DNA from: Gammaproteobacteria bacterium
GTDB taxonomy: Bacteria; Pseudomonadota; Gammaproteobacteria; Pseudomonadales; Litorivicinaceae
DNA: 41,729 nucleotides
Reading direction: 5' to 3'
Assembly (NCBI GenBank): GCA_009922705.1
Contig: RFUY01000002.1
Coordinates: forward strand, 1-41,729
The position numbers and the translations under genes are program-made. Of this stretch, positions 1 through 40,124 are shown in pieces. The stretch's first letter is position 1; each line of letters begins with the position of its first letter. The notes beneath the pieces were generated by a model. That model had not been told where the DNA came from and made no database searches. It saw only the letters and a program-made list of their open reading frames with translations.

Positions 1-231
1 CATCCAGAGTTTTGGCGCCATCTGTTTCTGCACGAGGGCGTCGATCCAACGAAGGCGGTCTTCATCGATGACTCTCCCCGCGTCCTGGAGGCCGCAGAGC
101 GTGCAGGCGTTGCGCACATCATTGAGATTCGGCAACCGAATCTTGCAGAGCCTCCGCGGACGTTATGGAAGCAGGGAATCATCGATTTCGATGATTTGAT
201 TCCAGGGCTTTGCGCCCAATTTTCCCGATGA
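1..231 (+). CDS. yrfG: HAD-family hydrolase, GMP/IMP nucleotidase YrfG-like (5' truncated by window edge)
   Basis: Frame 1 reads HPEFWRHLFLHEGVDPTKAVFIDDSPRVLEAAERAGVAHIIEIRQPN...FSR* with a HAD motif (FIDDSPRVLEAA); directly upstream of hslR-hslO as in E. coli. Confidence 0.8.
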   Translation, partial: HPEFWRHLFLHEGVDPTKAVFIDDSPRVLEAAERAGVAHIIEIRQPNLAEPPRTLWKQGIIDFDDLIPGLCAQFSR

Positions 232-617
232 GTGGAGTGCGTCTGGATAAGTGGCTGTGGGCAGCACGGTTTTTTAAAACCCGTGGGTTGGCACGCGAAG
301 CCATTGATGGCGGCAAAATCCGAATTAGCGGTGTCAAGGCAAAACCCGCTAAAGAAGTCACCGAGGGAATGGAAATTGTGATTTCGCGCCACAGTGAAGA
401 AATCACAGTTGTGGTAAACGCTGTGCGGGAGGATCGCCGGCCTGCACAGGAAGCGCAGATGCTTTACGCAGAAACCGAGGCATCGAAGACCAAACGCTTG
501 GCCCAATCAGAGGCCTTCCGCGCAGCCCGCGCAGGATTTGTACCTGCGGATCATCGCCCCAATAAACGGGAGCGTCGCCAAATAAGCCGCTTGAAAGAGT
601 TACCTGATGCCACTTGA
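228..617 (+). CDS. hslR: S4-domain RNA-binding heat shock protein Hsp15
   Basis: MSGVRLDKWLWAARFFKTRGLAREAIDGGKIRISG S4 domain; ATG at 228 overlaps the upstream TGA (ATGA); next to hslO. Confidence 0.9.
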   Translation: MSGVRLDKWLWAARFFKTRGLAREAIDGGKIRISGVKAKPAKEVTEGMEIVISRHSEEITVVVNAVREDRRPAQEAQMLYAETEASKTKRLAQSEAFRAARAGFVPADHRPNKRERRQISRLKELPDAT

Positions 618-1497
618 CCTGATTGCCGATCAAAACTGCGTTCGCCGTTACTTGCTTGAGGATGCGGACGACGCGCGCGTTGCCACCGTCCGTTTGACAC
701 AGTCACTGACCACGATGTTGGCCCATCAATCCATGCCACCCGCGGTTTTTAGGCTTTGCGGTGAACTGGCCTCGGCGGCCTGTCTACTCGCCAATATGCT
801 GAAATTCAAAGGTGAAATGATTGTACAACTCAAGGGCAGTGGCCCCGTGTCACTGTTAGTCGCAGATTGCAACTCGGAGGGCCAAGTTCGCGCCACCGCT
901 CAGTGGCAAGACCTTGGCGCCGCACAGTCATTCCAAGACTTGGTTGGAACCGGATATCTCGCCGTCACCGCAGATCCTGAGCAAGGAGAGCGCTATCAAG
1001 GCATCGTGCCACTGGATGGATCCTCACTCTCAGCGTGTCTGAATCACTACTTCGCCAATTCCGAGCAGATCGATACCCGAATTTATCTGGCCGCAGATAC
1101 CGAGCAGGCTGGTGGTCTCCTCTTGCAACGGCTGCCTCGTGAGGGCGGCTCCGGTGCACAAGCCGAGACCTGGGAGACCCTGCATGCGCTGACTGAAACC
1201 ATGACAGACGACGAACTCAAAACACTCGCAGGACCACCGCTGGCGTACCGACTGTTTCATGGACAGCAGATCCGGCAGATGGACCCCTGGTCAGTTCAAT
1301 TTGGTTGTTCCTGTAGCCGGGACCGATCTGCCCGAGCGCTCAGATCACTCGGAAAATCGGAGGTTGAAAGCCTTTTCGCGGCACAACCCAGGGTCGAGGT
1401 GGATTGCCATTTTTGTGGGCAGGTCTACCAATATGATCAAGCTGACATAGAATGGCTGTTGTCTGATCAGCCACCGGGGCCTGACACATTGCAATGA
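607..1497 (+). CDS. hslO: Redox-regulated chaperone Hsp33
   Basis: C-terminal GCSCSRDR...CHFCGQ (CxC...CxxC) zinc/redox centre. Confidence 0.95.
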   Translation: MPLDLIADQNCVRRYLLEDADDARVATVRLTQSLTTMLAHQSMPPAVFRLCGELASAACLLANMLKFKGEMIVQLKGSGPVSLLVADCNSEGQVRATAQWQDLGAAQSFQDLVGTGYLAVTADPEQGERYQGIVPLDGSSLSACLNHYFANSEQIDTRIYLAADTEQAGGLLLQRLPREGGSGAQAETWETLHALTETMTDDELKTLAGPPLAYRLFHGQQIRQMDPWSVQFGCSCSRDRSARALRSLGKSEVESLFAAQPRVEVDCHFCGQVYQYDQADIEWLLSDQPPGPDTLQ

Positions 1498-3011
1498 ATC
1501 ACGACGGATCGAGTCGATACGACGATCTTTCGATCGCTGAGTTAATCGAGCACAGCATTCGTTTGGGCGAAGGACAGCTGTCTCGTCACGGTGCATTAGC
1601 CGTTCAGACCACGCGTGCTGAGGTGGTAAAGCGTTTCTTCGTCAATGAGCCCTCAGTCACCGACGTCTTGCGCGCCGATGCCAACTTTGATCTCCTCGAC
1701 AGCAAGGCATTCAAATCGCTGTGGGAATCCGTCAAGGATCAAATCGCCGACTATCCGCGCTATCGCCTCTACGCGCATCTTGGGGTCCATCCAGATAAAG
1801 CGGTCCCGTTAGAGATCACGACCCTGAAAGCATGGCATGCATTGGCATGTCACCACCTCTGTCATATTCCAGAGGATGATGCCTTCAACCCGCGAGAGAA
1901 ACCGCTTTGGAAACTGATCTGGGCACCCTTATCGGTCCTGAAACAGACGATGCCCTCGGTCATTGAGGAGGCTGCGGGCGTGATCATGATGCACGTCGGT
2001 AAACGTCGAGTCCTCATGGCAGGGGATCTTACAGCCGGCGAAATGCGCCGCACTCTGCTGACTGTGCTTGGGCTCCTACTGCCAGAAAAAGGGGCTCTAC
2101 CACTACACGGAGCCGCCTCGATTGGGGATGGCGAGATTACCCTGTTTTTAGGCCCTGCTGGCGCCCAGAAAACGACCTGGGCGATGCGGTGCGGACAATT
2201 AATCGGGGAGCGTGGGCTCTCTTGGTCAGAGGATGGTCTACACCGACTCGCAGATGGGTGTCGTCTCCATCTGGATGCAAGCCTGCCCATCGCGTTGGAT
2301 GAGGCATTGACCTTCGGCACGCTGGCAGAAGAGCTCACCCTGCACCCAGACCGTCGTCCAGTCTTGGCTTCCACCGAGACATCACAGCCGCCCGACCCAA
2401 TCCACCTGGTCTTGCCACTGTCGAAGCTCCAAGCGATCCAAGACCCTGACACGCGCGGTCCGAGTCAACTGGTGATTCTTGCCACGGACCCTCTGGGCGT
2501 CTTGCCACCCCTCGCGCAACTGACCAAAGAGCAGGCACTTGCCTGGTATGTTTTGGGGTATGGCAATCACTACGGACCGCTTGAACATCGCCAAGCCGCC
2601 TGTGATCTTCGATTTACGCCAGGATTCATGGACACGTTATTACCGCGCAGCCTCGATGAATACATCTATCTCCTCTCAGATCTCCTCGACACGCACCAGA
2701 CCCGTTGCTATTTGATTAATGCCGGATGGCATGGCGGTTCGTGTGGTGTTGGTGAGCCACTGTCGAGTTCAGAAGAAAGTGCCTGTCTCACGGCACTCTA
2801 CCACTGCGTCGATTGGCAACCCTTTGGCGCCTTCGGATTACGGATTCCCGCCGGGCACTCGGAAACCGCCGGGCCTTGGCACTCGCGTGAACGCTGGGCG
2901 GATCCCTCAGGATTTGGCGCCCAATTAGATGCACTCAAACAGGCCATTTCGGCCGAATTAAACACAACCTCTGATCCAAGCCGTTGGCTCACTGCTCTGG
3001 AGCTCTCGTGA
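1494..3011 (+). CDS. ATP-type phosphoenolpyruvate carboxykinase (PckA) family protein with degenerate active site; probable pseudoenzyme or neofunctionalised paralog
   Basis: PckA-like segments: AGEMRRTLLTVLGLLLPEKGALPLHGAASIGDGEITLFLGPAGAQKTTWA, LIGERGLSWSEDGLHRLADGC, LVILATDPLGVLPPLAQLTKEQALAWYVLGYG, CYLINAGWHGG. ATG overlaps the hslO stop (ATGA). Most catalytic residues are substituted. Confidence 0.85.
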   Translation: MNHDGSSRYDDLSIAELIEHSIRLGEGQLSRHGALAVQTTRAEVVKRFFVNEPSVTDVLRADANFDLLDSKAFKSLWESVKDQIADYPRYRLYAHLGVHPDKAVPLEITTLKAWHALACHHLCHIPEDDAFNPREKPLWKLIWAPLSVLKQTMPSVIEEAAGVIMMHVGKRRVLMAGDLTAGEMRRTLLTVLGLLLPEKGALPLHGAASIGDGEITLFLGPAGAQKTTWAMRCGQLIGERGLSWSEDGLHRLADGCRLHLDASLPIALDEALTFGTLAEELTLHPDRRPVLASTETSQPPDPIHLVLPLSKLQAIQDPDTRGPSQLVILATDPLGVLPPLAQLTKEQALAWYVLGYGNHYGPLEHRQAACDLRFTPGFMDTLLPRSLDEYIYLLSDLLDTHQTRCYLINAGWHGGSCGVGEPLSSSEESACLTALYHCVDWQPFGAFGLRIPAGHSETAGPWHSRERWADPSGFGAQLDALKQAISAELNTTSDPSRWLTALELS

Positions 3012-4579
3012 CCTTTGAACTCCCTCACTTTGATGCCACCGCGCGTCAGCTACTCGATCACCCAGAGTTTCTCAACATCTTGCAAGGATGCCGCTTTGGG
3101 CTCGAAAAAGAGGGACTCCGCGTAGACGCACGTGGCACGCTGTCTCAAAGCCCCCATCCAAAGGCGCTGGGTTCAAAGCTCACACATCCCGGAATAACCA
3201 CCGACTATTCCGAGTCCTTGCTCGAATTCGTGACTGGTATTCATGCCACCCCCTTTGCGGCGCTCCACGAAATCGACCAATTGCAGACCTTTACCGATCA
3301 GGCACTAGGGGATGAGTGCATCTGGCCCCTGTCAATGCCCTGCCAACTCCCAGATGATGACCATGACATTCCATTGGCTGACTATGGGCGTAGCCACACA
3401 GGACGCCTAAAAACCGTCTACCGGCGCGGTCTTGGCTACCGGTATGGGCGGCAAATGCAGACCATCGCGGGCGTACACTTTAATCTCTCCTTCCCTGATT
3501 CGCTCTGGGGTCAACTTGGCCAGCGGCGACCCGCACTCGCAGCCACTGACGCACGCCAGCAACGTGATTTAGGGTATTTCCATACCATCCGAAATTTCCG
3601 CCGAATCCAGTGGTTAATGCTGCTGTTGACCGGTGCCAGTCCAACCATGCATGACTCGTTTCGTCTCCTTGCGCTCGATCGCTTTAAGATTCGGGGTGAC
3701 ACTCGACTTGCACCCGTTGCAACCTCGCTCCGTATGAGTGACCTCGGCTATCAGAGTGCCGCGCAAGCCTCAATCAACATCTGCTTCAATCAACTCGAGA
3801 CCTATTGCGCCACCCTGCGTCGTGCCGTGTCGCAGCCTTGGCCGCCCTATGAAGGAATCGGCTTGATTGACCAAGAGGGTTTCAAGCAGCTCAACACTGC
3901 GATTTTACAGATTGAAAACGAGTACTACTCCAGCATCCGCCCGAAACGTGTGCAAGAGGCGGGGGAGCGCCCTGTGCGTGCCTTGATGAATCGCGGTGTT
4001 CAGTATCTGGAAGTCCGGGCGATCGACCTCAACCCCTTTGCGCGCAGTGGTCTCTCAGAAACCGAAGCGGCGTTCATCACACTGCTGATGACAGCAGCCG
4101 CTCTGTGTGAGGCTCGACACATGTCCGATGACGAATGCCGCATTATCGACAGCCTAAACGCTCGGGCTGCGTGGCGTGGTCGGGAAATCCAACAATCCTT
4201 CCCAGACGGGAGAGCGTTCCGGGAAACCGCGATTGATTGGCTGGCGCCACTGGATGGACTCGCCGCCCGCTTGGATGAGGCCCAATCTGTGACCTATCAC
4301 CGGGATGCGCTAAACGATGCCCGCATTCGACTCTCCGGCGACTGCCCACTGCTTGCTGAAGAGGTGTATCAAGGGGTTTTGCACCAAGGCCACTTAAATT
4401 TCGGACTCGAGCTTGGGCAGCACCACCAGTCGCACCGGCGAGGACAAGGACTGCCAACGGCCGTTCGTGACCATCTGACCACGCTCAGCGACACCAGTTG
4501 GATAGAAGATGCCAAGATCGCCGAGGCCGATCAAGGCACCTTCGAGGAGTATGTCTTAGCCTATGTCAATCAGCACTGA
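3008..4579 (+). CDS. gshA: Glutamate-cysteine ligase
   Basis: CRFGLEKEGLRVDARGTLSQSPHPKALGSKLTHPGITTDYSESLLEFVTG; GTG start overlaps the preceding TGA (GTGA). Confidence 0.95.
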   Translation: MTFELPHFDATARQLLDHPEFLNILQGCRFGLEKEGLRVDARGTLSQSPHPKALGSKLTHPGITTDYSESLLEFVTGIHATPFAALHEIDQLQTFTDQALGDECIWPLSMPCQLPDDDHDIPLADYGRSHTGRLKTVYRRGLGYRYGRQMQTIAGVHFNLSFPDSLWGQLGQRRPALAATDARQQRDLGYFHTIRNFRRIQWLMLLLTGASPTMHDSFRLLALDRFKIRGDTRLAPVATSLRMSDLGYQSAAQASINICFNQLETYCATLRRAVSQPWPPYEGIGLIDQEGFKQLNTAILQIENEYYSSIRPKRVQEAGERPVRALMNRGVQYLEVRAIDLNPFARSGLSETEAAFITLLMTAAALCEARHMSDDECRIIDSLNARAAWRGREIQQSFPDGRAFRETAIDWLAPLDGLAARLDEAQSVTYHRDALNDARIRLSGDCPLLAEEVYQGVLHQGHLNFGLELGQHHQSHRRGQGLPTAVRDHLTTLSDTSWIEDAKIAEADQGTFEEYVLAYVNQH

Positions 4580-5291: not shown

Positions 5292-5924
5292 TCAAAGGGT
5301 ATCAGGATCAACTGGGTGATTGCCAACCAAGCGCCGACGTCCCTCGAGAATTCGACCGATGGTGGTCAACAAGCAAAGACTTGCAAAGCCATACGCGAGC
5401 CAACCAAAAAGCTCAGGACGTAAACACATGACGCTGAACACGAGGGTCGTTTCAAATCCCTCGGTGAGTCCTTCCAGATAGTACATCGACTTCTGCTGCA
5501 TCCTCAGGTTCGTCATGCCGCGGGTCTTGGCAAAGATGGCAAAGGCTAAGAAGCTCGACGCGGTGCCAATGAAGCTAAACAACAAGACTGCTGCAGCAAG
5601 ACTGTCAGCCGGATCGCGTAACGCAAAGCCCAGCACCATGCCGGCATACACCAAGAAATCCAACACGATATCGAGGAACGCGCCCGCATCGCTCGATTCG
5701 CGCTGGCGCGCGATTGCGCCATCTAGGCCATCACACAACCGGTTCAGTAGGAACAGTCCCAAGCCGAGTCCTGTGGCATCGACACTGACACAGCTAATGG
5801 CCAAAAGGCCAAAGAAAGCACCAAGCCAAGTCATCTGATCGGCGGACCAGCCGCGTTTGACCAGCACAACGGCAACCCGCGAGAGCGGGCCCTTCAGACA
5901 TTGATTCAGACGGGCATCAAACAT
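5292..5924 (-). CDS. ynjF: CDP-alcohol phosphatidyltransferase family protein (YnjF-like)
   Basis: DGLDGAIARQRESSDAGAFLDIVLD matches DGx2ARx8Gx3Dx3D; linked to ynjBCD homologs as in E. coli. Confidence 0.85.
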   Translation of the reverse strand: MFDARLNQCLKGPLSRVAVVLVKRGWSADQMTWLGAFFGLLAISCVSVDATGLGLGLFLLNRLCDGLDGAIARQRESSDAGAFLDIVLDFLVYAGMVLGFALRDPADSLAAAVLLFSFIGTASSFLAFAIFAKTRGMTNLRMQQKSMYYLEGLTEGFETTLVFSVMCLRPELFGWLAYGFASLCLLTTIGRILEGRRRLVGNHPVDPDTL

Positions 5925-6529
5925 TCGACCCTACGTTCATCCGCGCGATCTTCACCACTGTGCGTGACTTGCAAACACATCGCCCCACTCTCTCGAACCC
6001 ACTGAAACACATAGGCGCGGACCGCTTCACGACGCGTTGGATCCAGTGCACTGAAGGCTTCATCCAGAAATAATACCTGAGGCTCTGGCGCGATAGCCCG
6101 CGCAATTTGAACCCGCATCGCCTCCCCACGCGACAACGCCGTCGCTGGATGCTCAAGCGGATACTCCAATCCCAGTGCCGCCAGAAGTTGTCGCACCCGT
6201 TCTACTTTGCCCTGCCTCGTCAGCCCCTCGAGGCCAAGCGCGATGTTTGCACCGATCGACAGGTGTGGGAACAGACTCGGTTCCTGAAAGACCATCTGTG
6301 CCCGCTTCGCCGAGATCGGAATCTCAGACCATACGCGTCCGGATAACCTGACCTCTCCACACAGCGACACGCCTGGACAGGGACCAATCAACGCCGAGAG
6401 TAGTGTGGATTTACCTAACCCAGAGGGACCCTCAAGCGTCCACACCTCACCCGGTGCAATTGCCAAGGAAAATGGCTGGAACAATCGCAGTCCATTCCGC
6501 TCAACGGTCAGCTCAAGACACTCAAACAT
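5906..6529 (-). CDS. ynjD: ABC transporter ATP-binding protein (YnjD-like)
   Basis: Walker A GPSGLGKST, signature LSRGEAMRVQIARA, Walker B VLFLDEAFSALDP. Confidence 0.88.
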   Translation of the reverse strand: MFECLELTVERNGLRLFQPFSLAIAPGEVWTLEGPSGLGKSTLLSALIGPCPGVSLCGEVRLSGRVWSEIPISAKRAQMVFQEPSLFPHLSIGANIALGLEGLTRQGKVERVRQLLAALGLEYPLEHPATALSRGEAMRVQIARAIAPEPQVLFLDEAFSALDPTRREAVRAYVFQWVRESGAMCLQVTHSGEDRADERRVECLMPV

Positions 6530-8111
6530 GAGACCTCCGTCCACCTGCAAGTAAACTTGCCACGACAAAAAGAACGGCAGGCAAGATGGTATTGGCAACA
6601 CCCGCTACTGCGGCCAAGCGTCGATCCGACTGGAGACTCACCACAAGCTCCGTTGCAAGGGTCTCAACCCGACCACCGCCAAGCATCAGCGTTTGCGTGT
6701 ACAGGGCACAGCTGACCGAAAACGCGACTGCGAAGGCTAACCAAAGCGCTGCGCGGTGCTTCGGTACCCACACCTGACGTAGGGCACGCCAGGGCCCAAG
6801 CCCGGACATCTGAATCACACTGCGCTCCCAACTGGGCCTCGCGAGCCAAGGGCCTGACAAAACAATCAAGGCATAAGGGCATGCAATCAACCAGTGTGCA
6901 AACAGCACTGCCCAAAAGCCTGGCTGCCCCCCAATCATAAGCCACACCGACAGTAACCCAGCAGACAGCGGTAGGGCTGGGACCCAGAGCACACCCCACC
7001 AAAACAAGGGGACTCTTCGCTGATGCCGCTGTGCCATCGACTCTAACACCCAAACGGCTCCGATCACTGCGCTGAGCGCAGTCGCGAGTCCCATCGCTGT
7101 CGTCTCTCGGATTGCTGTCACCATTCGCAGTAAACGCAGGCCCAATCGATCCCAATCCATCACCGGAAACGGCATCTGAAACGACCAGGGCCCGGCCACC
7201 GCCCACAACACCAGCGAAACTCCGATGGCACACCAGAGGAGTCCCCCGACGCACACGAGTCCCTGATGTCCAAGCCAAGTGATCTGCGACGGTCTCGGGA
7301 GTTCGACGTTTAACCGCCGCCACCAGGCCAGTCCTCGCATCAGGCCCAGGCACGCCAGCGAGAGGGCAAAGGTGACGCAAAGCAGGAGCAGCGCCCCGAC
7401 TGCACCCGCTGCCCGACGGATTGGATCGGCATCCGTCAACAGCGCGATTAGCCGAGGGCCAATCAACCCTGGAATATCGGGCGCTAAAATCAGGGTGAGT
7501 TCAAGATTGGTGAGCCCGAATGCCAAAATAATCAAAATTGGCGCCGTCAGCTGCGACAGGACTTGAGGCCACACACACTGACGAAAGATCCGCGGCGATG
7601 ACCAGCCAAGACTGGTCGCATGCAAAACCTGTCCCTGCACGGGCAATTGAACCAGAACAGCCATCGCCATGACGGTCAAAAACACGGTTTCCTTGAGAGT
7701 CAGCGCAAGAATCAAGCCGACCCCCCAGGGATCTTGTGGAAAAGTCCAATCTGGCGGACTCATCCAACCCAAGGGCCAGGCAAGCCATCGAACGATCACG
7801 CCACTTGGCACCAGCAACCACAACAAGCCCAAGGCCACCGCACTATGCGGCACTGCCAGTAACCCAGGCAGCCAGAGACGATGAGGACGCTGCCAGAGCC
7901 AGGCCGTCAACACCTTGGCACACGACACGCTGAGTACCGTACTCGCCACGGCAACCCAGGTCGATAGGCCCCAAACAGCGCCAAGGGCCGGCTCAGCCAC
8001 AAACACGCGCCAGGCCGCACCCGCTTGCGCAAAGTCCCGAAGTTCCCAGCCTAATCCAAACACCCCAGACGCCAGAGCCACGCACATGACCCAGGCAAGT
8101 GGATGCCTCAT
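6522..8111 (-). CDS. ynjC: ABC transporter permease with two fused permease halves (YnjC-like)
   Basis: About 530 aa hydrophobic protein with two permease-like halves; ATG overlaps the ynjB stop (ATGA). Confidence 0.88.
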   Translation of the reverse strand: MRHPLAWVMCVALASGVFGLGWELRDFAQAGAAWRVFVAEPALGAVWGLSTWVAVASTVLSVSCAKVLTAWLWQRPHRLWLPGLLAVPHSAVALGLLWLLVPSGVIVRWLAWPLGWMSPPDWTFPQDPWGVGLILALTLKETVFLTVMAMAVLVQLPVQGQVLHATSLGWSSPRIFRQCVWPQVLSQLTAPILIILAFGLTNLELTLILAPDIPGLIGPRLIALLTDADPIRRAAGAVGALLLLCVTFALSLACLGLMRGLAWWRRLNVELPRPSQITWLGHQGLVCVGGLLWCAIGVSLVLWAVAGPWSFQMPFPVMDWDRLGLRLLRMVTAIRETTAMGLATALSAVIGAVWVLESMAQRHQRRVPLFWWGVLWVPALPLSAGLLSVWLMIGGQPGFWAVLFAHWLIACPYALIVLSGPWLARPSWERSVIQMSGLGPWRALRQVWVPKHRAALWLAFAVAFSVSCALYTQTLMLGGGRVETLATELVVSLQSDRRLAAVAGVANTILPAVLFVVASLLAGGRRSHV

Positions 8112-9289
8112 TGCGTCAGATACCGCGCCCGCCAGGCAGCTTCGAGAGGCTCCGTCCATGAGGCATGAGGCTCAGGCAGAGCGGGTCCAAGTTGTTCGGG
8201 GCGTAATACAGATGCTGGGATGGGAAGAGCCTCAAAGAGGGCCCTAGCGTCTGCAGGTAAACGCGTCACATCCAACACGGTTGGATCACCCCACACCTCT
8301 GGGTTTGCCTTTTCCGCCTGCCAATGCGGTGACAGCAGCGCATTGATGGTGACTAATGCGGCGGCGCGTGCCTGTGCATTAAACGGAATTGCCAGGAAAT
8401 GGGTGTTTCCGAGTGTCCCGCCGGCATGCACATGGGTTCTGACGGTCTTGGGCACACGGCCGGACGCGATCTGGCTGGCCGCCTCGTTTGGGTTAAAACT
8501 CAGCGCAATGGCCAACTCCCCATCGGCCAACAGCTGAATCATCGCCTCCGCCGAATCCGGAAATTGCACGCCTTGTCGCCAGGCCACAGCATGTAAGCGA
8601 TCCAGATAATCCCAAACCGGTGCCGTTTGTACCGCAAAGGTTGCGGGCGTAACCGGGGTCGCAAGCACCGTGGGATCAGGGGCGAGCGCGAGCAGGACAT
8701 GCTTTAAAAACGTCGTTCCGTGGAAATTCGGTGGCTCCGGATAGCTCACTCGGCCCGGATTTGCGTGTGCAAACGCCAACAGCGTTTCAAGGCTATTGGG
8801 GGGAGTGGAAACCACCGCCTCATCATGCAAAAAGACCAAGCGCGCGCGACCCCAGGGCGCTTCAAGCCCCTCTGTTGGAATCGAGAAATCCATCACGAGC
8901 GTGGGATCGTTCGGATCCAGGAATTGCGCATTGGGCAACTCAGACACAAACGGCTGACCCAATAACCCTTCCCGCTTGAGACGCGCGAAGTTTTCACCAT
9001 TGACCCACAACAGATCTGCAGAACCGCGCGCAGAACCCGCTCGACGCTCAGCTTCAATCCGTGCAATCACAGCCGCGATGTCATCGACTTTCACATGAAC
9101 TAGGCGGAGTTGATACATCGCCTCCAAGGCGTCACCCACGCGAGCGATGTACTGATTGATCGTCTCTGAGCCACCCCAGGCATTGAAGTAGACCGTTTGG
9201 CCTCGCGCCTGGCGCTCGACCTCGGACCATGTTTGGGCTGCGCCCACCTGAGCCATACCCACCAGCAACAACGCCATCAAAAACCGCAT
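8108..9289 (-). CDS. ynjB: ABC transporter substrate-binding protein (YnjB-like)
   Basis: Signal peptide; QTVYFNAWGGSETINQYIARVGDALE...ADLLWVNGENFARLKREGLLGQPF resembles E. coli YnjB. Confidence 0.88.
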   Translation of the reverse strand: MRFLMALLLVGMAQVGAAQTWSEVERQARGQTVYFNAWGGSETINQYIARVGDALEAMYQLRLVHVKVDDIAAVIARIEAERRAGSARGSADLLWVNGENFARLKREGLLGQPFVSELPNAQFLDPNDPTLVMDFSIPTEGLEAPWGRARLVFLHDEAVVSTPPNSLETLLAFAHANPGRVSYPEPPNFHGTTFLKHVLLALAPDPTVLATPVTPATFAVQTAPVWDYLDRLHAVAWRQGVQFPDSAEAMIQLLADGELAIALSFNPNEAASQIASGRVPKTVRTHVHAGGTLGNTHFLAIPFNAQARAAALVTINALLSPHWQAEKANPEVWGDPTVLDVTRLPADARALFEALPIPASVLRPEQLGPALPEPHASWTEPLEAAWRARYLTQ

Positions 9290-31055: not shown

Positions 31056-31914
31056 GTCTACTGTGTTCCTGTTGAGTCTCAATCATCCACCTGCCCAGAC
31101 CGACTGGGATATCTCCGGCCATGAGGCGCTTCCCCCACTCATCCGCACAAGACGCGCCACTGGCGCGCAGTGCGTGGACAGCCGCTTCAGGGCTGGGTCC
31201 CGCCAATGGATCCAACATGCGACTGAGCCGATTCACCCAACCCAGGGGTGTCTGAGGAAGTGGATCTGCGAGGGGTGATTGCCCCCGAATGAGTCGCTCC
31301 CCCCGTTCTGCTTTACTAATCACAGCCATGTAGGCGGGGATGTGATCAGCCAGTGTCATCCCCAGGGATACCAAGCGCTCAAGCGAGCCCTGGTGCCATT
31401 CAAGCTCTACTTCAGAAACAGGGGAGGTGGCAGACCCCACACTGACCTCTCCGCGATCGAGGGAGATCGTTAAGGCCAGACCTTGATCCTGAATCCGCCA
31501 ATCGGTGCGCCACAGGACATTTTGAAAGACCGGGCGGAGGTGTGCCGGGTCCAACAGTTCCTGGACGGATGGCGCCAAGGGCAGCGCTTGTAGTGCAGAC
31601 CAGTCAAGTGCATGTGTGGTGACCGGAAGATTCCACTCTTGCCGCTGGGTGAGCCCAGATTCATCCGGCTCACGTACTTTCACCGTCATTTCTATTTGGT
31701 CGTCGACTTGGCGTAGACGCACCGCAACCCCCAATGCATGTAATGCACCTGTCGCCGTATCGAAATAGGTATTACCCAAGCGTTGCTCAGGCAGACGGAC
31801 AACCTGCTCGATGTCGAGTTGCGCAAGCAGCGAATCGAGACGATCGGCACTCAGGTGTCGTACACCCAGTTTTAATTCACGTTCGATGGGATCTGGAGTT
31901 ACTGGGGAATTCAT
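31042..31914 (-). CDS. ygiF: CYTH-domain protein, YgiF (inorganic triphosphatase)-like, short form
   Basis: IERELKLGVRH (ExExK), NTYFDTATGALHALGVAVRLRQVDDQIEMTVK; ygiF-glnE order as in E. coli. Confidence 0.85.
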   Translation of the reverse strand: MNSPVTPDPIERELKLGVRHLSADRLDSLLAQLDIEQVVRLPEQRLGNTYFDTATGALHALGVAVRLRQVDDQIEMTVKVREPDESGLTQRQEWNLPVTTHALDWSALQALPLAPSVQELLDPAHLRPVFQNVLWRTDWRIQDQGLALTISLDRGEVSVGSATSPVSEVELEWHQGSLERLVSLGMTLADHIPAYMAVISKAERGERLIRGQSPLADPLPQTPLGWVNRLSRMLDPLAGPSPEAAVHALRASGASCADEWGKRLMAGDIPVGLGRWMIETQQEHSRHGCA

Positions 31915-31946
31915 CGCACAATCCTAAGTCAAATCAAGGAGACGCC

Positions 31947-33239
31947 GTGATTCAAACCGAACCGATCGTGGCCTGGCTGAGAGAAGCGGGTCCCTACATC
32001 GAGTCCTTCCGTGGGAAGACTTTTGTCATCCTACTCTCGGACGAGCATGGCTCCGAAGTCAACCACAGTCGACTGGTGGAAGACCTCTGCTTACTGCATT
32101 CACTCGATGTTCGACTGGTTCTCATTCAAAGCACCCGACACGCCATCGACAGGCATGTCTCCTCACGCGGCGTTCCCACGGAGTTTCATGCCACGCGCCG
32201 GATCACTGATGGGCAATTACTGGTTGCAATCCAAGAGATCGTTGGCCAAGCCCGACTGACCTTTCGCGGGCTCTACACTCGGGCGATGCATCGCAATCGT
32301 GGAACCGCGCCGCTGGTCTCTGGTGCGTTCGTCACGGCAAAGCCGCTTGGTGTTCATGACGGCGTGGACCACCTCTTTACAGGCTCGGTTCGCAAAATTG
32401 ATATCGCCGGGATCAAAGCCCAACTCACGCTCGGTGCCGTGGTTTACGTGGACCACCTAGCGCATGCGCCCAGCGGCCAACTCTATAACCTGGCCAGCGA
32501 AGAAGTGGCGACAAAAACGGCCATTGCGTTGCAGGCGGATAAGTTAATTTTATTTGGGTCGACACCAACCTGTCTTGATCTCGATGGCACCGCCCTGACC
32601 GAGCTCACGAGCCGCACCCTAGATCGCGTAATGCCTGCCCAAGCCCCAGAGATGCAGCGGCGTCTGACAACCGCGGCGGCCGCATTGCGCGGTGGTGTCA
32701 AACGGTGTCATTTGGTGCATGCAGCAACCGATGGCGCACTGCTCACAGAGCTATTGACGGTACAAGGCTCGGGCACAATGGTGACTGGCGAGGCAACGGC
32801 AAGGGTCCGCTCCGCACGACTGGATGATCTCAGTCACCTGCTCCATCTGATGCAGCCATTGGAAGAAGCTGGCTCATTGGTCAGACGGTCACGAGAACAA
32901 CTCGAAGCAGAAATCGGAAACTTTATGGTGATGGACTGTGACGGTCGGATTTTAGGCTCAGCCGCGCTTTATCCGCTGGACCAACACACCGGCGAGCTCG
33001 CCGCGCTGGCTGTAGATCCGGACCATACCGGTGCGCGCATTGGAAGCCGACTACTTCAGGCCATCGAATCTGAAGCCAAACAGCAGGGGCTCACCACGCT
33101 CTGCGTGCTCACCACACTGGCCCCTGACTGGTTCAGCGAGCGCGGCTTTGCGCGTGCATCACTGACGGATCTGCCCGATAATCGGCAGGCACTGTATAAC
33201 TTTCAGCGTAATTCACTGATCCTCACCAAGGCCCTATAG
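31947..33239 (+). CDS. argA: N-acetylglutamate synthase (AAK + GNAT domains)
   Basis: AGPYIESFRGKTFVILL, LLHSLDVRLVLIQS, LEEAGSLVRRSREQLEAEIGNFMVMDCD, FSERGFARASLTDLPDNRQALYNFQRNS; GTG start with AAGGAGA upstream. Confidence 0.92.
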   Translation: MIQTEPIVAWLREAGPYIESFRGKTFVILLSDEHGSEVNHSRLVEDLCLLHSLDVRLVLIQSTRHAIDRHVSSRGVPTEFHATRRITDGQLLVAIQEIVGQARLTFRGLYTRAMHRNRGTAPLVSGAFVTAKPLGVHDGVDHLFTGSVRKIDIAGIKAQLTLGAVVYVDHLAHAPSGQLYNLASEEVATKTAIALQADKLILFGSTPTCLDLDGTALTELTSRTLDRVMPAQAPEMQRRLTTAAAALRGGVKRCHLVHAATDGALLTELLTVQGSGTMVTGEATARVRSARLDDLSHLLHLMQPLEEAGSLVRRSREQLEAEIGNFMVMDCDGRILGSAALYPLDQHTGELAALAVDPDHTGARIGSRLLQAIESEAKQQGLTTLCVLTTLAPDWFSERGFARASLTDLPDNRQALYNFQRNSLILTKAL

Positions 33240-37021: not shown

Positions 37022-37824
37022 CCCAAAATCCTCCACAGCAGGCGCAACGCGACCAGCCACAAAAAGGTCGCAAATAATCGCTTTAACACCACTTGATCGA
37101 GACTATGGGCCAGCCGGACGCCAAACCGTGCGGCAAGCGTGCTCGTGGCCACAATCCCGAGAAATGCAGGGAGATACACATACCCAGCAGACCATGGCAA
37201 TCGATCTGCCGCATCCCATCCTGTCACCATAAAGGTCAATGCACCGGCCGTTGCCGTTGGCAATCCGAGTAATGACGCCGTGCCAACCGCACGTTTGACC
37301 TGCTCACCAAAACTGGTCATCAAGGGGACAAGAAAGGCACCCCCGGCAATCCCCATCATCGCACTCAGCCAGCCAATCGCAGTCCCGGACACCGCAATGA
37401 CAGCCGCATGTGGTCTTTTTTCATCGCCAGGGGCAACCACCCGTTTGGCTGTCAAAAACAACTGTAAGCCCATGGACATCAGGAACACGCCAAGCATCAG
37501 GGTGAGTGTCTCGCCATGCAATTGATCTGCAGTCCAGCCCCCGATCACACCCCCCATGATGAGAAATGGCACCAATCGTCGGATCCAAGTCCATAACATG
37601 GCGCCCTTTTTGTAGTGGTTGTAAGACGAGCTCAATGCGGTCATCACCACACAGGCGAGCGAGGTACCGACCGCCACATGCGAAGCCACATCCAGAGACA
37701 GTCCAAGCACATCAAAGGTCAACAACAAGACGGGGACAATGACAATGCCACCACCGACACCAAACAGCCCTGCGATGACACCAGAGACGACCCCCAGCGG
37801 TAGATAAATCAGAAATTCCATCAT
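37018..37824 (-). CDS. TauE/SafE family sulfite exporter-like membrane protein
   Basis: GVVSGVIAGLFGVGGGIVIVPVLLLTF; ASHVAVGTSLACVVMTALSSSYNHYKKGAM; GWLSAMMGIAGGAFLVPLM. Confidence 0.92.
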   Translation of the reverse strand: MMEFLIYLPLGVVSGVIAGLFGVGGGIVIVPVLLLTFDVLGLSLDVASHVAVGTSLACVVMTALSSSYNHYKKGAMLWTWIRRLVPFLIMGGVIGGWTADQLHGETLTLMLGVFLMSMGLQLFLTAKRVVAPGDEKRPHAAVIAVSGTAIGWLSAMMGIAGGAFLVPLMTSFGEQVKRAVGTASLLGLPTATAGALTFMVTGWDAADRLPWSAGYVYLPAFLGIVATSTLAARFGVRLAHSLDQVVLKRLFATFLWLVALRLLWRILG

Positions 37825-40124
37825 TGACAGGCCTCAAGCGCCAAGGTGTCTCGCAATGACGGGGGGAGCAACAAACTCAAGCCATGTTTCAAAAAGGTTT
37901 CGGCCAACACACGCAAGACCTGCTCGCCCGACTCCAAAGAGACCGCAAGGGTCGCCAGAGATTCACAATCTGAGCGATCGAATGCCTGGACTGCCCGCTT
38001 CACCTTGGCCAAACTCGATCCAGACATCGACAACTCATTAAACCCGAGCCCCACCAACAACACAGCGGCCATCGGATCGCCGGCCATCTCGCCACAGACG
38101 GCGACTGGAATCCCTGCGCTTCGCGCCGCCTGTGCGGTCTGAGCAAGCGCTCTTAAAACGGCTGGATTTAAGCTGTCGAACAAATTTGCAACACGCGCGT
38201 TAGTGCGATCCACAGCCATGAGATATTGGGTCAAATCATTCGAGCCCACCGACAAAAAGTCACAATGCTGGGCAAGTTCTGGGGCCATATAGACTGCACT
38301 GGGGACTTCAATCATGACCCCGATTTCAGGATTCTCTAAGTGCATTCCGTCGCCGCGCAACTCGCCCAGAACCCGGGCAATCAACCGTTTAGAGGCGGTA
38401 AGCTCTGCCACGGTACTGACCATCGGTAATAAGATTCGCAGATTATCTAAGCCCTCAGAGGCACGAAGCATGGCGCGGATTTGTGTGATAAAGATTTCCG
38501 GGTGATCCAAGGTCACCCGAATTCCACGCCAGCCGAGAAAAGGGTTTGACTCATCAAAGGCAAAATAGGGGAGTCCCTTGTCGCCACCAATGTCCAAAGT
38601 TCGCATCACCACCGGACTCGGTGAATACTGATCGAGCTCGTCTTGATAGATGACACGTTGCTCATCCTCAGTCGGAAACCGTCCGCGCGCGAGGAACGCG
38701 AACTCGGTGCGATATAGTCCGACACCCCCAATCCAAGAACGCTGAAGTTGCGATAACTCCCCAAATAATCCGGAGTTCAACATCAGCTGCACACTATGAC
38801 CATCTCGGGTGAGGCACGGTCCTGGACCAACGCGATCCAAATCTGCTTGCAAGACCGCGGCTTCGGCAATCGCCTCCTGGTAGGCCTCACGAACAGCCTC
38901 AGAAGGATTTGCGACCACTTCCCCTCGCCATCCATCCACAACCACCGTTGCTCCCTGCAGGTCAGAAACCGGCAAATCGGTCGCTCCCATCACCGCAGGA
39001 ATCCCAAGGCTCCGCGCTAGAATCGCCACATGGCTGGTCGCAGACCCTTTCACCGATACGATGCCTTTAAGCTGATGTTTTTGAATCTCGCCCAACATCA
39101 CAGGCGTGACGTCTTCGGCCACTAAAATCGTGTCTGCATCCAGCGTTCCCAGATCATCGACCTGATCTTGCAGTCTCGCCAGAATACGGCGCCCCAAATC
39201 CAATAGATCAGACCCCCGTTCTTTGAGATACGCGTCTTGCATGGCCTCAAATCGCGCCACCAGGTCGAGCACGACATATTTTAGTGCTGTTTCAGCGCTC
39301 TCTCCGGACCGGATTCGACGACAGACCTCACCACTGAGTGTGTGATCTTCCAACATCCGCAAATAGGTCTCGAAGAGCGCCATTTCTGACTCTTTAAGAC
39401 TCGATGATAGATTTTGACTAATCCGACGAAGTTCGTCCTTGACGGCACTCAGCGCATCCTGAAAAGCAACCAGCTCTCGCTCTGGATCTTCAGTCATCCG
39501 ATCACGGACACGGCGCAGCATTGCCGGGGGGCGACGCACAAGGCAGGTCCCCATCGCAATCCCTGGGACGCTGCCCACGCCCTTGAAGTACACATCCGGT
39601 CGCGCGGTTTCACCAGTCTGACCGCTGCCCGTCCTTAACGCGCCGGAGATCTTTGCGTGCGCAATCAATGCAGACAACTGCGCGGCCACGGTAATCAACA
39701 GGGCCTCTTCATCATCCGAGAAACGGCGTGGCGTCACTTGTTGGACAACCAATACGCCCAGTACCTGTCGCTGATGCACGATCGGTACCCCTAAAAAGGA
39801 GTAAAACTCCTCTTCCCCTGTTTCTCGCAAAAACCGAAAGGCCGGATGGCGAGGCGCATTATCCAAGTTCAACAACTCTTCGCGCGTGCCAACGGTGCCC
39901 ACCAACCCCTCATGCAAGCCCAAACTGACTCTGCGTACAGAGTCAGGGTTCAATCCATCGGTCGCCATTAAGACCCATCGATCCGACGCATCGTCTTTTA
40001 GGTACACCGAACAGACACCCGTCTGCATGATGGATTTCACGCGACTGACAATCAGCTCAAGGGCAGCGTCTAAGTTTTCAGCATCGGTGACCGCCTGAAC
40101 CAGTCGCCGAAGGGTGTCTAGCAT
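37821..40124 (-). CDS. ptsP: Phosphoenolpyruvate-protein phosphotransferase PtsP (EI-Ntr, GAF + EI)
   Basis: N-terminal GAF; GVGSVPGIAMGTCLV; active-site His in GSATSHVAILARSLGIPAVMG; GIGGVGLYRTEFAFL-like; FLSVGSNDLTQYLMAVDR. Confidence 0.96.
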   Translation of the reverse strand: MLDTLRRLVQAVTDAENLDAALELIVSRVKSIMQTGVCSVYLKDDASDRWVLMATDGLNPDSVRRVSLGLHEGLVGTVGTREELLNLDNAPRHPAFRFLRETGEEEFYSFLGVPIVHQRQVLGVLVVQQVTPRRFSDDEEALLITVAAQLSALIAHAKISGALRTGSGQTGETARPDVYFKGVGSVPGIAMGTCLVRRPPAMLRRVRDRMTEDPERELVAFQDALSAVKDELRRISQNLSSSLKESEMALFETYLRMLEDHTLSGEVCRRIRSGESAETALKYVVLDLVARFEAMQDAYLKERGSDLLDLGRRILARLQDQVDDLGTLDADTILVAEDVTPVMLGEIQKHQLKGIVSVKGSATSHVAILARSLGIPAVMGATDLPVSDLQGATVVVDGWRGEVVANPSEAVREAYQEAIAEAAVLQADLDRVGPGPCLTRDGHSVQLMLNSGLFGELSQLQRSWIGGVGLYRTEFAFLARGRFPTEDEQRVIYQDELDQYSPSPVVMRTLDIGGDKGLPYFAFDESNPFLGWRGIRVTLDHPEIFITQIRAMLRASEGLDNLRILLPMVSTVAELTASKRLIARVLGELRGDGMHLENPEIGVMIEVPSAVYMAPELAQHCDFLSVGSNDLTQYLMAVDRTNARVANLFDSLNPAVLRALAQTAQAARSAGIPVAVCGEMAGDPMAAVLLVGLGFNELSMSGSSLAKVKRAVQAFDRSDCESLATLAVSLESGEQVLRVLAETFLKHGLSLLLPPSLRDTLALEACQ

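Follow-up and report, generated by a model that had tools for sequence, protein, structure and literature searches.

Phosphoenolpyruvate carboxykinase (PEPCK) stands at the centre of carbon metabolism, and the locus described here raises the question of what a member of the PckA family does once the residues that define the enzyme have gone. In the 41,729-nucleotide stretch of DNA that we analysed (the window), an ORF of 505 residues, here called pckX, runs uninterrupted from an ATG at position 1494 to position 3011 on the + strand, exactly as a sequence-only reading had proposed. It matches Pfam PF01293 (PEPCK_ATP) over residues 9-453 with 207.9 bits (E 3e-61; gathering score 26.5), covering positions 4-457 of the 465 in the profile, and a Pfam scan at E <= 0.001 returned this family alone. 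The protein nevertheless falls far below every NCBIfam PckA cut-off, reaching at best 216 bits against the 815 of NF006823, and its 152.5 bits against the equivalog cut-off of 590 in TIGR00224 place it outside the functional ATP-PckAs; the other members of the pckX family in the genus match the same six NCBIfam models. A profile search of the window's genome (89% complete) found neither a canonical pckA nor any other second PF01293 protein, leaving this divergent protein as the sole PEPCK homologue. Judged by its sequence, pckX is a PF01293 member by descent whose functional PckA membership fails on the defining residues tested. AlphaFold2, given two input sequences (the window's pckX and L032, 86% identical to it, from a Litoricola sp. 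MAG record), returned a pLDDT of 31.7.

Position and descent of pckX

The gene lies downstream of hslR (S4-domain, Hsp15-like; 210..617, +) and hslO (Hsp33; 607..1497, +), whose stop overlaps the pckX start by 4 nt (ATGA), and upstream of gshA (glutamate-cysteine ligase; 3008..4579, +), whose GTG start overlaps the pckX stop (GTGA). Both overlaps recur in 17/17 genomes, and the order hslR-hslO-pckX-gshA is found in every complete locus of the genus. Canonical pckA has hslR and/or hslO directly upstream in most genomes of the order; in E. coli yhgE separates hslO from pck. By its hslR-hslO-pckA synteny pckX is orthologous to pckA in position and did not arise by duplication. Because this adjacency is ancestral, the operon tells little of the new function. 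No PF01293 protein was found by profile search of the genomes of the sister genus (g2), and there the locus L087 (genome G022, 1492-3808) reads hslR-hslO-gshA, with gshA 118 bp past hslO and pckA gone from between them, a natural deletion at the same place.

Divergent pckX is carried by 19 of the 21 other genomes of the genus, the Litoricola/OM252 group, and by none in a second copy. OM252-clade genomes ('Ca. Halomarinus') are assigned to Litoricola by GTDB (PMC8269220). The full-length set, including the window's copy, comprises 17 sequences that are 58-86% identical, the three left out being contig-edge fragments or the broken copy of G006. In this last genome (L020) a single stretch with several frameshifts breaks both pckX and the end of hslO, and since hslO is affected too an assembly error is the most likely cause. 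In the two genomes without pckX, G011 and G021 (88% and 61% complete), hslO is missing as well, which probably means that their assemblies do not cover the locus. Against a pckX profile members of the genus score at least 939 bits and the best protein outside it 283 bits, the outside matches inspected being canonical PckAs. No pckX-like protein was found outside the genus in about 1,000 proteobacterial genomes (samples of 296 from the order, 369 from the class and 398 from the phylum, partly overlapping), and the viral contigs searched held no relative. pckX is about 30% identical to the PckAs of the order, which among themselves have a median identity of 67%. In the tree the genus sequences form one clade (SH-aLRT 100) with a very long stem and a much shorter crown, in which saturated branch lengths show merely that most change fell on the stem. 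A horizontal origin is not favoured, the synteny being ancestral and the best outside matches lying in the same order, though on this question the tree by itself is weak evidence because of the long stem.

Two further regions of the window were noted by eye. A 545-residue ABC-permease-like protein (6522-8159, -), with no Pfam match at E 0.001, is flanked by an ABC ATPase (5906-6601) and a solute-binding protein (8108-9289). An N-acetylglutamate synthase-like ORF of 501 residues (31734-33239, +) has a kinase-like and a GNAT region; its start lies far upstream, where it overlaps with an opposite ORF, and is probably misplaced.

The altered active-site residues

The orthologues were aligned with E. 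coli PckA (L033), whose residue numbers we use, and with 57 PckAs of the order and class; single-residue roles are those established for the E. coli protein. In canonical PckA R65, Y207 and R333 bind oxaloacetate/CO2, K213, H232 and D269 form the Mn2+ site, and R449, T455 and K288 bind adenine and the gamma-phosphate. Each of these sets is altered in all 17 pckX sequences. R65, the Arg of GRSPKDK, is deleted in 17/17, with Y207 replaced by T/S and R333 by H; the Mn2+ site reads R, H, R throughout; R449, in the KRISIKDTR loop, is deleted in every sequence, as is K288 together with A287, and T455 has become S in 16 and F in one. Beyond these, the replacements K212 to R, K213 to R, C233 to G, L249 to P, S250 to A, G253 to Q, D269 to R, H271 to L, E297 to P and F413 to L are fixed in 17/17, and E270 to G/A is near-fixed. 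The orthologues retain E210, H232, G248, G251, K254 and T256, with a hydroxyl residue (T/S) at 255 and an acid (D/E) at 268 kept in 17/17. By comparison GLSGTGKT, GDDEH and R..YP are retained in 57/57 comparator PckAs of other lineages. Functional regions of a rhizobial PCK are listed in PMC3482446, in which the adenine-site Arg and Thr, R441/T447, are the equivalents of R449/T455.

In the window's own protein these changes fall in recognisable, degenerate motifs on the + strand. The PEPCK-specific YAGEMKK appears as L179-TAGEMRR-186 (2028..2051), with T180 for Y207 and R185/R186 for K212/K213, and the metal ligand H232 is kept as H205 (2106..2108), as in all 17. The kinase-1a P-loop GLSGTGKTT has become G220-PAGAQKTT-228 (2151..2177), GPAG(T/A)QK(T/S)T across the genus, so that the Lys (K226) and hydroxyl persist while Ser250 and Gly253 (now Q225) are lost. 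The kinase-2/metal motif GDDEHGW reads G238-ERGLSW-244 (2205..2225), with R240 for D269, and H304 (2403..2405) replaces the substrate Arg R333. An HMMER alignment that included the sequence of the T. thermophilus PckA structure (1j3b) placed EM-[KR][KR], the His, the P-loop and GD alike. Every residue that had been called by eye from the sequence holds in the alignment with E. coli PckA and the 57 others, which adds the deletion of K288 and the changes E297 to P265, F413 to L382, T455 to S424 and G253 to Q225.

pckX has also gained fixed residues that canonical PckA lacks. These comprise a C119-H120-x-L-C123-H124 cluster (1848..1865, +), invariant in the genus, and C405 and C438. With its i/i+4 spacing the cluster, if helical, could serve as a metal site or as a redox pair. 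A haem motif was considered and rejected, the spacing being C-x3-C-H, not C-x2-C-H.

Selection and metabolic setting

Several measures indicate that the protein is constrained. dN/dS for the eight closest pairs (Nei-Gojobori) is 0.03-0.13, much like that of hslO, and a gene in decay can be rejected on these values. Across the order, PckA identity exceeds hslO identity in 276/276 pairs, by a median of 22 points, whereas within the genus pckX exceeds hslO by a median of just 6 points, so pckX is less constrained than canonical PckA, though clearly under constraint. Columns that are invariant in canonical PckA and changed in pckX have been re-fixed more often (31/67) than ordinary variable columns (118/366; Fisher p = 0.035), which suggests that the old pocket is in use in a new form, although the test is weak because the species are related and not independent.

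Loss of PEPCK appears tolerable in this lineage. No other PEPCK was found in any genome of the genus and, as GTP-PEPCK is absent from the 25 family genomes searched, its substitution for PckA was rejected. PEP synthase and malic enzyme are each present in 23/25 family genomes. In G020 the PEP synthase scores above the equivalog cut-off of its NCBIfam model; the malic enzyme, intact, matches its own model over the full length, with a score under the subfamily cut-off. Together these two enzymes would provide a bypass that made pckA dispensable.

That pckX is no longer a PEPCK but is still under selection is therefore strongly supported. The sequence-only reading had claimed as much for the single protein, and the claim survives extension to its orthologues, which share the substitutions in 17/17 within one clade and evolve with dN/dS far below 1, in a genus with no second PEPCK and, in most genomes, both bypass enzymes. 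The refuting condition set by that reading, a lack of orthologues with shared substitutions under purifying selection, was checked and did not overturn it.

What pckX may do

The explanation we favour, and consider probable, is that the former pckA of this genus turned in place into a protein other than PEPCK, likeliest a ligand-binding regulatory pseudoenzyme. In the ancestor of the family a malate to pyruvate to PEP bypass may have taken over the gluconeogenic flux, leaving pckA dispensable; the sister genus would then have deleted the gene, and the pckX genus kept its protein for another role. The remnant of the pocket would consist of the P-loop Lys226, Thr/Ser227 and Thr228, the acid at 239 and His205, with the newly fixed positive residues Arg185, Arg186, Arg240 and His304 predicted to sit where metal or substrate was held. 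The most likely ligand of such a pocket, with the Mn2+ site and oxaloacetate gone, would still be a nucleotide or another phosphorylated compound; a phosphate-bearing ligand with no second metal is the simplest reading of what remains. The protein would be synthesised alongside Hsp33 and glutamate-cysteine ligase. The sequence evidence is thus best read to mean that the protein kept a phosphate-binding pocket and took on a new role in regulation or phosphotransfer, for which a ligand-binding regulator is most likely and a new phosphotransferase the second possibility. The earlier suggestion of a nucleotide-binding, kinase-like or regulatory protein accordingly stands in part: it agrees with the conservation of K254, T/S255, D/E268 and H232, and is weakened where it concerns nucleotides by the loss or change of R449, T455 and K288. 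Indeed these losses, with the change of G253 to Q, disfavour ordinary ATP binding, so that the ligand is perhaps no nucleotide, and the Gln225 that replaces the P-loop glycine makes an ordinary ATPase doubtful as well.

A new enzyme would have the PEPCK/HPr-kinase-type fold carry out another phosphotransfer through Lys226, Thr/Ser227, the acid at 239 and His205, as a kinase or phosphorylase with a protein or small molecule as its substrate. All four are kept in 17/17, and HPr kinase/phosphatase and PEPCK have been grouped in one kinase family (PMC1079889). However, the second metal-site Asp (D269), K288, S250 and the P-loop G253 are all lost, the adenine contacts R449/T455 are lost or changed, and PEPCK_ATP is the one Pfam match, which makes this unlikely. 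HPr kinase/phosphorylase, a P-loop protein of the PEPCK family according to the same source, is the candidate that might work alike; pckX gave no HprK profile match in the Pfam scan (E <= 0.001), through which alone the motifs were compared. A PtsP-like gene (nitrogen PTS enzyme I with a GAF domain) was noted by eye in the window at 37821-40124 (-), and would gain relevance should pckX prove to be an HPr-type kinase. Less probable again is a purely structural or scaffolding pseudoenzyme with an empty pocket, its fold serving contact with a protein such as Hsp33 or GshA or a Cys/His redox or metal site. Fixed C119, H120, C123, H124, C405 and C438 and the translational overlap with hslO and gshA, which act in redox stress, fit such a role and allow a redox-linked one more generally, but the hslO adjacency is ancestral, and most of the substituted positions in the old pocket are fixed, not drifting.

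Canonical PckA (EC 4.1.1.49; PF01293; E. coli Pck, T. thermophilus 1j3b) resembles pckX in whole-length homology, similar length, place by hslO, P-loop Lys/Thr and metal His, and differs in the oxaloacetate, Mn2+, gamma-phosphate and adenine residues. PEPCK activity through an unconventional active site would suit the retained fold family, the single PF01293 copy and the conservation of H232 and K254, and is very unlikely given the loss of R65, Y207, K212, K213, D269, K288, R333 and R449 in 17/17 and the presence of the bypass enzymes. We give even less credence to a decaying relic, or a filler that merely couples hslO and gshA translation: the gene is lost in the sister genus and its frame is broken in G006, but 17 copies are intact, dN/dS in close pairs is similar to that of hslO, the G006 break extends into hslO and so points to the assembly, and coupling by itself would not constrain amino acids. 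A bolder reading, which we consider less likely than not, is a genus-specific family on the PckA fold, arisen in place without duplication, in which the whole old site was remade as an Arg/His-rich pocket without a Mn2+ site and given a new function, possibly as a phosphotransferase or as a sensor of a phospho-ligand, linked to redox defence by Hsp33/glutathione.

To our knowledge no bacterial PEPCK pseudoenzyme has been described, and searches of the open-access literature found none. The MoeA-derived Glp of Actinobacteria (PMC11733289) is likewise a metabolic enzyme given another cellular role in one lineage; it belongs to a different family and its new role, in cell division, is known. In pckX it appears to be the original gene, not a spare duplicate, that changed function, and the gene-less sister lineage provides a natural control. 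Automated annotation based on Pfam would name the protein PckA and so wrongly attribute gluconeogenesis or CO2 fixation through PEPCK to this marine clade. pckX would instead represent a clean case of a central enzyme freed from its duty and then reused.
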